Assembly (NCBI GenBank): GCA_003209755.1
Contig: QCPD01000004.1
Coordinates: 62,001-126,000, forward strand
Direction of reading: 5' to 3'
Length of the DNA: 64,000 nt
From: Prochlorococcus sp. AG-436-C14
Lineage (GTDB): Bacteria > Cyanobacteriota > Cyanobacteriia > PCC-6307 > Cyanobiaceae
Part shown: positions 31,383 to 38,745 of the stretch, one piece after another
Position numbering within the stretch: the stretch's first letter is position 1
Layout of the letters: each line of letters begins with the position of its first letter
Translations under genes and position numbers: made by a program
Notes under the pieces: generated by a model
What the model was told of the DNA's origin: nothing
The model's database searches: none
What the model saw: only the letters and a program-made list of their open reading frames with translations

Positions 31383-32489
31383 GTGGCATTTACTAAAAAA
31401 TTAAAACAACTTTTCGCTTCTACCCCAAAAAAAAGTAATTGGGATGGACTTATAGAAGAATACAAACCTTGGTTACCAGTAACAAAAAAAACGCCCATCA
31501 TTACTTTAAAAGAAGGCGGAACACCTCTTATAGAAGTCAAATCAATCTCTGATCGAATTGGAAAAGAAGTAAAAGTATATGTCAAATATGATGGTTTAAA
31601 TCCTACAGGATCATTCAAAGATAGAGGCATGACAATGGCAATCAGCAAAGCTAAAGAAGCTGGTTGTGAAGCTGTAATTTGCGCAAGCACAGGTAATACC
31701 TCAGCATCTGCAGCTGCTTATGCAAGCAAAGGAAAAATGAGATCTTTTGTTGTTATCCCAGACGGGTATGTAGCTCAAGGTAAATTAGCTCAAGCTTTAG
31801 TTTATGGAGCGGAAGTATTAGCTATTAAAGGAAACTTTGATAAAGCATTAAATATTGTTAGAGAATTATCTGATAAATATCCAATAACATTAGTCAACTC
31901 AGTTAATCCCTATAGATTACAAGGACAAAAAACAGCTGCTTTTGAAATAATAGAATATCTTGGAAATGCTCCTGATTGGTTGTGCATTCCAATGGGAAAT
32001 GCAGGTAATATAAGTGCTTACTGGATGGGATTTCAAGAATTTTTTCAGGCTAAAAAATCCAAGCAACTTCCTCGAATGATGGGATTTCAAGCGAGTGGTT
32101 CTGCACCTTTAGTCGAGGGTAAAAGCATAAACAATCCGGAAACAATTGCTACTGCTATAAGAATTGGCAATCCAGTTAATAAAGAAAAAGCCTTTCTAGC
32201 CAAAGAATCAAGCAATGGAAAATTTTCCTCCGTGACAGATTCAGAAATAATTGACGCTTATAAAATTCTTGGAAAAGAGGAAGGTATTTTTTGCGAACCT
32301 GCTAGTGCAGCTTCTGTTGCTGGTTTATTAAAAATTAAAAATGAAGTTCCGAGTAAAGCAACTATTGTTTGTGTTTTAACTGGAAATGGTCTAAAAGATC
32401 CTGATTGCGCAATAAAAAACAATGATTCAATTTTTCATACAGGTATAGATGCAGAAATTAATGCAATAACAAAAATAATGGGGTTTTAA
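31383..32489 (+). CDS. thrC: threonine synthase
   Basis: ThrC converts O-phosphohomoserine to threonine using pyridoxal phosphate. The PLP lysine lies in [14 protein letters not shown] (about residues 77-90), the phosphate loop is [17 protein letters not shown], and [10 protein letters not shown] is near the end. At 368 residues it is of the short class found in plants' and cyanobacterial relatives without the long N-terminal extension. The likely start is a GTG at 31383; no earlier ATG fits. The replication-origin-like region begins immediately after its stop. Confidence 0.94.
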
Positions 32490-32552
32490 ACACATATAAA
32501 TATCCAAAAAAATAACTGTCTGTTAAATTCCATTATTAATCTTTATTTATAC

Positions 32553-32561
32553 TGTGGAAAA
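32553..32561 (-). promoter_or_regulatory. DnaA box
   Basis: TGTGGAAAA, which is TTTTCCACA on the minus strand; it differs from the consensus TTATCCACA by one base and is the only box of the group in this orientation. Confidence 0.65.
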
Positions 32562-32593
32562 AACATCAAAAGTCTTGAACAAATAGACTTCTG

Positions 32594-32602
32594 TTTTCCA
32601 CA
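32594..32602 (+). promoter_or_regulatory. DnaA box
   Basis: TTTTCCACA, the same nonamer as two others in this stretch. TTTTCCACA is the DnaA box form I associate with cyanobacteria. Confidence 0.65.
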
Positions 32603-32631
32603 AGCAAAATCAATGGTTGAAAAGCATGTTT

Positions 32632-32640
32632 TTGTCCACA
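32632..32640 (+). promoter_or_regulatory. DnaA box variant
   Basis: TTGTCCACA, one base from the consensus TTATCCACA, 20 bases before the next TTTTCCACA box. Confidence 0.55.
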
Positions 32641-32651
32641 ATTAAAAAAAC

Positions 32652-32660
32652 TTTTCCACA
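32652..32660 (+). promoter_or_regulatory. DnaA box
   Basis: TTTTCCACA in the plus orientation, 20 bases (two helical turns) after the TTGTCCACA variant, so both would face the same side of the helix. Confidence 0.65.
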
Positions 32661-32704
32661 CTTAAAAAACCTAAGAAAGTCTTTTCAGAGCTATGTTTTT
32701 TGAA

Positions 32705-32713
32705 TTAACCACA
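32705..32713 (+). promoter_or_regulatory. DnaA box variant
   Basis: TTAACCACA, one base away from the consensus. It is followed at once by GAAACCACA (32714-32722), a weaker copy that may be chance. Confidence 0.45.
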
Positions 32714-32865
32714 GAAACCACAAGAACTACTACTATTAATTCAATTTCATATCATGAATAAAGAATTAGAATAGAAGAGAGATGTGTTTATTTTTTTTAC
32801 GGTATTGCTTTTTGGAAATAGCTATGAAATTCTTATATCAACGGATTTTTTTTTGAAATAACGGA

Positions 32866-34026
32866 ATGAATCTAAATTGTTCTCAATCTGAATTAAATAT
32901 CGCTCTTCAATTAGTTAGTAGAGCAGTTTCTAGTCGTCCGACACACCCTGTATTAGCTAATGTTTTGCTTGCAGCTGATGAAGTAACTGGAAAACTTCGT
33001 TTAACTGGTTTTGATTTAAGTTTAGGAATACAAACATCAATATCTGCTTCTATAGAAAGAAGTGGTGCAATAACTTTACCCGCTAAGTTGTTTGGTGAGA
33101 TTGTTTCTAAGTTATCTAATGAGTCCCCTTTGATTTTGACTTCTGATGAAAATAACCATCAAGTTGAATTAACTAGTAAAAGTGGTACATATCAAGTGAG
33201 AGGAATGCTTGCTGATGATTTTCCTGATTTACCTTTAATTGAAAGTGGAACTTCACTTAAATTAAATCCATTAATGTTATCTAATGCTATTAAATCAACT
33301 TTATTTGCAAGTAGTACTGATGATTCTAAACAATTACTTACAGGAGTTAATCTTACATTTGATGGATATGGTATTGAATCAGCAGCAACTGATGGACATA
33401 GATTAGCTGTTTTAAATTTAAATAATATTTTATCCGATTCTAAAAATATAGATTTACCTAATAATATTGATAAATTTTCTATTACATTACCTTCAAAATC
33501 ATTAAGAGAAGTCGAAAAGTTTTTAAGTAGTTGCGATATTAGCGAACCTATTAACTTTTTTATTGATAAAGGACAAGTAGTTTTTATATCAGTTGATCAG
33601 ATTATAACTATAAGAGCTTTAGAAGGTTCTTATCCAAATTATTCTCAATTATTACCTGAAAAATTTGAAAATGTTTTAGAGTTTGACAGAAAAGAATTTA
33701 TTGCTTCATTAGAAAGAATAGCTGTGTTAGCCGACCAACATAATAATGTAATTAAGGTGACTACTGATAGTTCTGCAAAATTAATTAAAATCACTACTGA
33801 TGCACAAGATATTGGAACAGGTTCTGAGTCATTGCCTATTTCCTTTATAGGTGAATCTTTTCAAATTGCATTTAATGTTAGATATTTATTAGATGGGTTG
33901 AAAGTAATAGATTCGAAGTTTATTAAATTAAGTTGTAATTCCCCTACTACACCTGCAGTTTTTTCACCTGTTAACAGTGAGGTAAATTTTACTTATCTGG
34001 TGATGCCCATACAAATAAGAAATTAA
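32866..34026 (+). CDS. dnaN: DNA polymerase III beta sliding clamp
   Basis: DnaN forms the ring that tethers the replicative polymerase to DNA. The 386-residue length, the N-terminal LNIALQLVSRAVSSRPTHPV, the central ATDGHRLAVLNL and the C-terminal FNVRYLLDGLKVI followed by a tail ending YLVMPIQIRN are all typical of the three-domain clamp. The start is an ATG after GG-AA with no strong Shine-Dalgarno. It is the first gene to the right of the origin; dnaA is not next to it, unlike in many other bacteria. Confidence 0.97.
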   Translation: MNLNCSQSELNIALQLVSRAVSSRPTHPVLANVLLAADEVTGKLRLTGFDLSLGIQTSISASIERSGAITLPAKLFGEIVSKLSNESPLILTSDENNHQVELTSKSGTYQVRGMLADDFPDLPLIESGTSLKLNPLMLSNAIKSTLFASSTDDSKQLLTGVNLTFDGYGIESAATDGHRLAVLNLNNILSDSKNIDLPNNIDKFSITLPSKSLREVEKFLSSCDISEPINFFIDKGQVVFISVDQIITIRALEGSYPNYSQLLPEKFENVLEFDRKEFIASLERIAVLADQHNNVIKVTTDSSAKLIKITTDAQDIGTGSESLPISFIGESFQIAFNVRYLLDGLKVIDSKFIKLSCNSPTTPAVFSPVNSEVNFTYLVMPIQIRN

Positions 34027-37287: not shown

Positions 37288-38745
37288 ATGTGTGGAATTG
37301 TAGGTGTTGTTTCAACAGATCAATGTAATCAACAAATTTACGATAGTTTGTTATTACTGCAGCATAGAGGCCAAGACTCTACTGGTATAGCAACAATGGA
37401 AGGAAGCGTTTTTCATATTAATAAATCTAAAGGTCAAGTTCGAGAAGCTTATAGAACTAGAGACATGAGAGGGTTGATTGGAAAGATAGGGTTGGGACAT
37501 GTACGTTATGCAACAAAAGGTGCTGCTCATCGAGAAGAGGAAGCACAACCTTTTTATGTAAATGCTCCTTATGGAATTATTCTTGTTCATAATGGAAATT
37601 TAACTAATACAAGAGAATTAGAAAAAGAACTTTTTAAAGTTGATAAAAGGCATACAAATACTTCAAGCGATACTGAGATGTTATTAAATGTTTTGGCAAC
37701 AGAATTAAATACGGCAATAAAAGGAAAAGATATAAATCCAGATGATCTTTTTAAAGCAGTTAAGACACTTCATGGAAGAGTAGAGGGATCCTATGCTTCA
37801 ATTGCTTTAATAGCAGGGCATGGTCTTTTAGCTTTTAGAGACCCTTTTGGAATTCGTCCTTTAGTTATTGGTAAAAGAGTAAAAGAAAATAATAAACCTG
37901 AATGGGTTATCGCAAGTGAATCATTAGTTATTGAAAATAATGATTATGAAATTGTTAGAGATGTGGAGCCAGGAGAGGCGATTTTTATAACTTCAGATGG
38001 TCAATTTTTTTCTAAACAATGCTCAAACAATCCTCAATTATTCCCCTGTTCATTTGAATATGTTTATTTAGCTAGACCTGATTCAATAATGAATGGTATT
38101 TCTGTTTATGAGTCAAGATTAAGAATGGGAGATTTATTGGCAGAAACTATAAAAAAACAAATTTCTCTTGGTGATATAGATGTAGTCATGCCAATACCCG
38201 ATTCTTCGAGACCTGCAGCAATGCAAGTAGCAAGACAGTTAGGAATTGAATATAGAGAGGGTTTTTTCAAGAATCGTTATGTTGGTAGAACATTTATAAT
38301 GCCCGGTCAATCTCTAAGAAAACGTTCAGTTCGTCAGAAGTTAAATGCAATGAGTACGGAATTTAAAAATAAAAATGTATTAATAGTTGATGATTCAGTT
38401 GTTAGAGGAACAACATCTCAGCAGATAGTTCAAATGGCAAGAAGTGCAGGGGCTAATAAAGTTACTTTTACATCTGCTGCTCCACCAATCAGATATCCAC
38501 ACGTTTATGGCATTAACATGCCAACTAGGAATGAATTGATAGCTTACAATAGAAATATAAATGATATAGAAGATAATTTATTTATCGATAAAATGATCTA
38601 CCAAGAAGTAGATGATCTAACTAAAGCTATCACTAAAGGTTCTAAAGTTAAGGAATTAGATTTATCTTGCTTCACTGGAAAATATGTGACAGGCACAGTT
38701 ACTGATGAATATTTAACTTGGGTTGAACAAACCTCTTTATCCTAA
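37288..38745 (+). CDS. purF: amidophosphoribosyltransferase
   Basis: PurF carries out the committed step of purine synthesis, making phosphoribosylamine from PRPP and glutamine. Cys2 in MCGIVGVVS is the glutaminase nucleophile, exposed directly after the start without a propeptide. [15 protein letters not shown] and GHVRYATKG complete the glutaminase half, and the PRPP-binding segment [20 protein letters not shown] marks the transferase half. No Fe-S cluster motif was sought in detail. It follows purL and ends convergent on the gyrase A-type gene with a four-base overlap. Confidence 0.97.

Follow-up and report, generated by a model that had tools for sequence, protein, structure and literature searches.

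Does the gap between thrC and dnaN in this draft genome hold the origin of chromosome replication and, if so, at which bases would the two strands come apart? The window, that is, the whole stretch of 64,000 nucleotides that was analysed (G000:C4:62001-126000), belongs to a draft genome of 1.72 Mb whose dnaN is nearest, among named records, to those of Prochlorococcus single-cell genomes. Within the window, thrC (31383-32489; TIGR00260) is followed by 376 bases (32490-32865) and then by the sliding clamp gene dnaN (32866-34026, forward strand; TIGR00663, E 1.1e-95); the size of the gap and the identity of the next gene are as given in a preliminary description of the sequence. That description had also proposed that the gap is a replication origin, and this proposal is supported by the skew minima of a relative, by the conservation of the boxes and by a full-length DnaA. 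We regard it as highly probable that the gap is the chromosomal replication origin, very likely of the known cyanobacterial type, which lies beside dnaN and uses the DnaA box TTTTCCACA.

Origins adjoining dnaN and carrying TTTTCCACA are recorded for cyanobacteria in DoriC (passages in PMC4674748 and PMC6323995), and the origin of Synechococcus elongatus, near dnaN, is experimentally established and DnaA-dependent (PMC7198777, in part). For Prochlorococcus ecotypes, bi-linear read coverage of the single-origin kind has been described in metagenomes, in passages that do not give the position of the origin (PMC9589681). The hint in the preliminary description that the origin might be unusual finds no support: of 68 listed cyanobacterial origins, 55 adjoin dnaN, and most use TTTTCCACA (PMC4674748, in part). 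Like the dnaN-adjacent origins of this type (DoriC/Ori-Finder; S. elongatus, Cyanothece 51142), the gap is intergenic and adjoins dnaN and has a TTTTCCACA cluster (three exact copies, the others variant) with boxes in mixed orientation; in the complete relative G011 the matching gap also lies within 6 kb of the skew minimum, as such origins do in clades with a V-shaped skew. The gap differs in its smaller number of boxes, with four (one mismatch or less) in 466 bases here and 10 in the 1.1 kb upstream of dnaN in G101.

Clustered DnaA boxes in the thrC-dnaN gap

Five DnaA-box-like nonamers fall within 161 bases, exactly as the preliminary description had listed them: TTTTCCACA on the reverse strand at 32553-32561 and on the forward strand at 32594-32602 and 32652-32660, and the forward variants TTGTCCACA at 32632-32640 and TTAACCACA at 32705-32713. 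Two of the boxes are 20 bases apart, measured from start to start. Absent from that list were a second box in tandem with the last one (32714-32722), a run of DnaA-trios (32727-32741) and a weak reversed site at 32615-32623, degenerate in the window (TTTTCAACC); at least 15 of the 28 gaps of relatives have NGTGGATAA there. Three exact boxes within 161 bases were reached in none of 200 order-1 Markov resamplings of the window (maximum two, once), nor were four boxes with at most one mismatch (0/200; maximum three, 18 times). Over the 1.72 Mb of the own genome the exact nonamer is mildly enriched (33 occurrences vs 20 of a control pattern), and three exact copies come together at the origin only; the loose bacterial pattern TTWTNCACA, with 8 copies in the window against 10.2 expected, shows no enrichment there. 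The signal of the boxes is their clustering, not an overall enrichment.

The AT-rich stretch that was said to follow the boxes is present but only mildly AT-rich: 32742-32865 has 25% GC, and 12% of window stretches of the same length have a GC content as low or lower. On the other side of the cluster, a conserved element, ACTGTCTG, occupies 32515-32522, 38 bases before the start of the first box; 21 of the 28 distinct same-genus gaps have this form and the other seven have AGTGTCTG, so that one or the other is found in all 28. In several other genera GTCTG continues, as judged by eye, into a reversed box-like sequence, and the element may have flanked a distal reversed DnaA box that has since decayed. 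Conservation within the gap is highest (0.94) in the block 32790-32840 (forward strand), which is a candidate, and a probable one, for the dnaN promoter or leader. A sigma-70 consensus scan reported no site within 32790-32840, the promoter scan gave no more than chance (2 sites vs 2.3 expected), the terminator scan found none, and Rfam at the gathering threshold gave 0 matches across the window. A palindrome, ATAGCTAT, lies inside the block, close upstream of dnaN.

A predicted BUS module next to dnaN

The basal unwinding system (BUS) of bacterial origins has been defined by tandem DnaA boxes, the better with at most two mismatches and the other with at most four, followed by a spacer of 0-16 bases and at least three 3'-NAN-5' trios (PMC8287927, in part). 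This layout is found at 32705-32741. Two co-oriented boxes on the forward strand, TTAACCACA (32705-32713) and GAAACCACA (32714-32722), have two and four mismatches to TTTTCCACA, the latter number being at the limit of the published rule; after a 4-base spacer, AGAA (32723-32726), come the DnaA-trios 3'-GAT GAT GAT AAT TAA-5' on the reverse strand (32727-32741; top strand CTACTACTATTAATT). As far as sequence likeness goes, the module resembles that of the Bacillus subtilis oriC (DnaA-box#6/7 plus DnaA-trios), on which experiments have been reported (PMC6669920, in part), in its tandem co-oriented boxes, its short spacer and its 3'-GAT-5' trios; it differs in that the boxes are AACCACA-like and the spacer is not GC-rich. 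The own genome encodes a full-length DnaA of 466 amino acids, and the B. subtilis residues N187, I190, I193, R202 and E228, reported to capture or flank trio bases (PMC10721633, in part), are all present in it as N203, I206, I209, R218 and E244 (alignment to PDB 8BTG). A potential BUS has been predicted in 1755 of 2070 origins, and the DnaA of S. elongatus was among the proteins purified in the same study (PMC8287927, in part); among literature titles, the scope of our search, none was on a Prochlorococcus BUS.

Conservation among relatives

Of 56 sequences collected (the window and 55 loci), 28 distinct same-genus gaps entered the alignment, after removal of 23 identical copies and of five sequences that were too short upstream. 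The nonamers pointed out in the preliminary description are kept in these relatives, whose gaps are 56-81% identical to that of the window. The mean conservation of the six main boxes is 0.926, against 0.79 for the gap, and among 376 circular shifts of the box mask the true register alone reaches 0.926. The exact box is found in 21/28 aligned gaps at 32553-32561, in 25/28 at 32594-32602 and in 19/28 at 32652-32660; at 32632-32640, at least 21 of the 28 have TTNTCCAC among the forms listed. The BUS is present in all 28: CCACA is retained in 27 gaps in the first of its boxes and in 28 in the second, positions 3-4 are AA in 20 and 24 gaps, respectively, and the trios have a conservation of 0.96. 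The block 32790-32840 is conserved above the BUS, which ranks 61 of 340 windows.

A box-plus-trio pattern precedes dnaN in 31 of 41 same-genus genomes and in 17/17 of those at least 90% complete; of the ten without it, eight had no dnaN found, one had a dnaN that was cut and one had 75 bases upstream. The complete genome G011 (1.92 Mb) has a single instance of CCACA with CTACTACTA in the next 12 bases, and this lies at the origin gap. Some same-genus genomes, among them the own genome, have the looser pattern behind the count of 31 at other places too, and its reversed control turns up 0-3 times on each strand; it is thus the place of the pattern that is telling, its mere presence being weak evidence. 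Within the family, 12 of the 20 gaps with enough sequence show a box-like site followed by three trios in register; in the other eight (65-70% GC) three trios in register were not found, and two trios with a degenerate remainder are visible. Upstream of dnaN in 15 further genomes, the strict BUS pattern was found in nine, mostly with TTTCCACA-like boxes and with a GC-rich spacer; the six without it comprise three with boxes (degenerate forms, by eye) and three boxless ones.

Two oddities among the dnaN loci are recorded here. A 19 kb single-cell contig (QCHR01000019.1; L014 and L015) carries dnaN with an identical gap twice, in opposite directions, perhaps as an amplification chimera. A record titled Bifidobacterium breve (CALPNT020000155.1; L033) has a dnaN 57% identical to that of the window and an origin of the picocyanobacterial type, and its title looks wrong.

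Position of the gap relative to chromosome skew

The preliminary description had suggested cumulative GC skew over a complete chromosome as a check, and in a complete same-genus chromosome the minima lie within a few kb of the matching gap. This chromosome, G011, consists of one contig (1,924,674 bp) whose numbering does not start from dnaN, and it is the one relative from which the skew argument for the origin is drawn. Its cumulative GC minimum is at 1,317,631 and its T-A minimum at 1,327,297, at distances of 3.8 kb and 5.9 kb from the first base of dnaN (1,321,435), and the maxima are at 344-455 kb. Counted over 20-kb blocks, the sign of GC skew is as expected in 41/48 blocks of the right arm and 36/48 of the left, and that of T-A skew in 47/48 and 45/48; the best symmetric split falls 3.8 kb (GC) or 0.8 kb (T-A) from the BUS. 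Contig C4 of the own genome (132,661 bp, of which 2 kb N-filled) has a weak GC skew that is lowest at a point beyond the window, and only the T-A minimum is near the gap, at window position 38655. In G043, from another genus, 40 blocks covering 1-1.19 Mb on one side were examined: between the 330-kb block and the dnaN block (1.17 Mb) cumulative T-A declines, with a single block running counter to this, the direction being as expected.

Other box clusters of G011 were considered as rival origins, and none is at the skew minimum. Those at 91380-91422, 523209 and 936248 lie upstream of genes for DUF2811 (PF10929), a small conserved cyanobacterial protein; near the boxes at 811836 is a gene that resembles lexA.

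A possible course of initiation and its alternatives

We infer that DnaA binding, strand opening, helicase loading and firing would all take place at the gap. DnaA bound to the distal boxes (32553-32660) would, by analogy with B. subtilis, raise its own local concentration, and DnaA-ATP, starting from the two co-oriented boxes in tandem (32705-32722), would load onto the bottom strand of the trios (32727-32741), capture trio bases and separate the strands. The opened DNA on the dnaN side would receive the replicative helicase, and bidirectional replication would then proceed to a terminus about half a chromosome away. Such an origin would offer, beyond a cluster of boxes, a precise and testable opening site for a group of ocean phototrophs, and a site of this precision would be useful for growth estimates from read coverage.

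A different reading, which we judge very unlikely, is that the boxes only regulate the transcription of dnaN, with DnaA as a transcription factor and the origin elsewhere. DnaA boxes do lie upstream of other genes in this lineage, and the most conserved block of the gap abuts dnaN. However, skew minima lie near the gap, the other close box pairs of G011 (523, 812 and 936 kb) are away from the skew minimum, and the gap has a trio module, whereas a trio-like run, on either strand, was found in only one of 20 box regions upstream of DUF2811. A shade less probable still is a vestigial origin in a chromosome whose replication needs no DnaA, a mode reported for Synechocystis PCC 6803, Nostoc PCC 7120 and Synechococcus PCC 7002 (PMC7198777, in part): boxes and BUS have stayed conserved in a gap that otherwise drifts, G011 has a V-shaped skew, and DnaA is intact with all five trio-reading residues, even though DnaA is reportedly dispensable in those three cyanobacteria and 18 of 388 genomes of the class, in our larger draw, had no DnaA match at E 1e-60 or better. 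A chance grouping of a T-rich nonamer in an AT-rich gap, to which the lack of enrichment of TTWTNCACA in the window might point, can practically be dismissed in view of the Markov resamplings and of boxes conserved at matching positions in relatives.

DnaA boxes upstream of DUF2811 genes

The probable replication origin next to dnaN is one of several places with grouped boxes. G011 has four places where boxes, with an exact TTTTCCACA among them, are paired within 60 bases: oriC, two DUF2811 loci and one near the lexA-like gene. The own genome has two DUF2811 genes (box regions G000:C1:130504-130674 and C3:37462-37632; L232 and L233, with those of other cyanobacteria as L234-L266), one preceded by one exact and two one-mismatch boxes, the other by four one-mismatch boxes and no exact one. 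In each of four complete same-genus genomes (G025, G002, G032 and G019), the first DUF2811 paralogue is preceded by an exact box at a distance of 266-311 bases, and the 600 bases before the remaining paralogue contain none; in G032 an exact box also lies 317 bases before a tandem DUF2811 pair.

We give here a survey of 20 regions from 17 genomes, each made up of the 600 bases that precede the DUF2811 domain; for six of the regions (three genomes) the box positions were known beforehand. An exact box was found in 17 of the 20; the regions contain 32 exact boxes, with 0.3 expected from resampling, and 68 with at most one mismatch, with 6.3 expected. Among the 14 genomes picked blind, 12 have an exact box, with 24 exact boxes in all, and four control nonamers occurred 1, 0, 0 and 0 times. 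As to the three regions without an exact box, that of G105 has three TTATCCACA boxes, the form at its own origin, another has three one-mismatch boxes and the last a single one. The boxes form phased arrays, with spacings mostly of 11, 21-22 and 44 bases, and of the 68 boxes 57 point along the gene. Three genomes that are boxless next to dnaN (G089, G093 and G100) have exact boxes upstream of DUF2811. In all, an exact box was found in 25/28 DUF2811-upstream regions of DnaA-positive genomes.

DUF2811 in genomes without DnaA

DnaA was found in 116/116 sampled genomes of the class, and DUF2811 in 115 of these. In the 18 DnaA-less genomes of the larger draw, DUF2811 had no match in 13, was represented by copies with stops in two and by an open copy in three, while all eight DnaA-positive relatives, hand-chosen for comparison, have DUF2811 with an exact box upstream. 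An open DUF2811 is thus present in 123/124 DnaA-positive genomes vs 3/18 DnaA-less ones (Fisher p = 1.9e-16, shared ancestry ignored). Losses occur in families f32, f33, f35 and f41, and broken copies in f30 and f32. In the genera g113 and g163, DnaA-less species are without DUF2811 and the tested DnaA-positive species have it; of three DnaA-less species in g160, one has a broken DUF2811 and two keep it, and the DnaA-less species of g116 retains it. The five copies left in DnaA-less genomes have 1, 1, 1, 0 and 0 exact boxes. Against a strict link stand the three DnaA-less genomes that retain DUF2811 and the DnaA-positive G097, which is without it. General gene loss in the DnaA-less genomes may also lie behind the absence of DUF2811, the comparison having been made for DUF2811 only.

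On balance, we lean slightly towards DUF2811 being a direct target of DnaA with a part in a DnaA-dependent process. DUF2811 could be a cyanobacterial regulator of initiation expressed under the control of DnaA, and its role could account for the retention of DnaA where replication has no need of it. The literature search returned no paper containing the word DUF2811 and no study of a DnaA regulon in cyanobacteria. No second Pfam family above cut-off and no NCBIfam model matched DUF2811, and sequence comparison gave no convincing relative of its fold among solved structures; by eye, it may have a ribbon-helix-helix look. In viruses, DUF2811 was found neither in a scan of viral contigs (close relatives only) nor by tblastn of phage records. 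The link between DnaA and DUF2811 is more novel than the origin and is unexpected to a specialist; if true, it outweighs the origin, as a concrete candidate for a role of DnaA outside replication, a role stated to be unclear for cyanobacteria that replicate without DnaA (PMC7198777, in part).

A further arrangement of boxes recurs in these genomes. In G011, at 811633-811852, near the lexA-like gene, two exact copies of TTTTCCACA stand inverted; such pairs, 202-209 bases apart, are recurrent, with similar spacing in the own genome (G000:C1:10402/10606) and in G025, G002, G032 and G019, and with 209 bases in G050.
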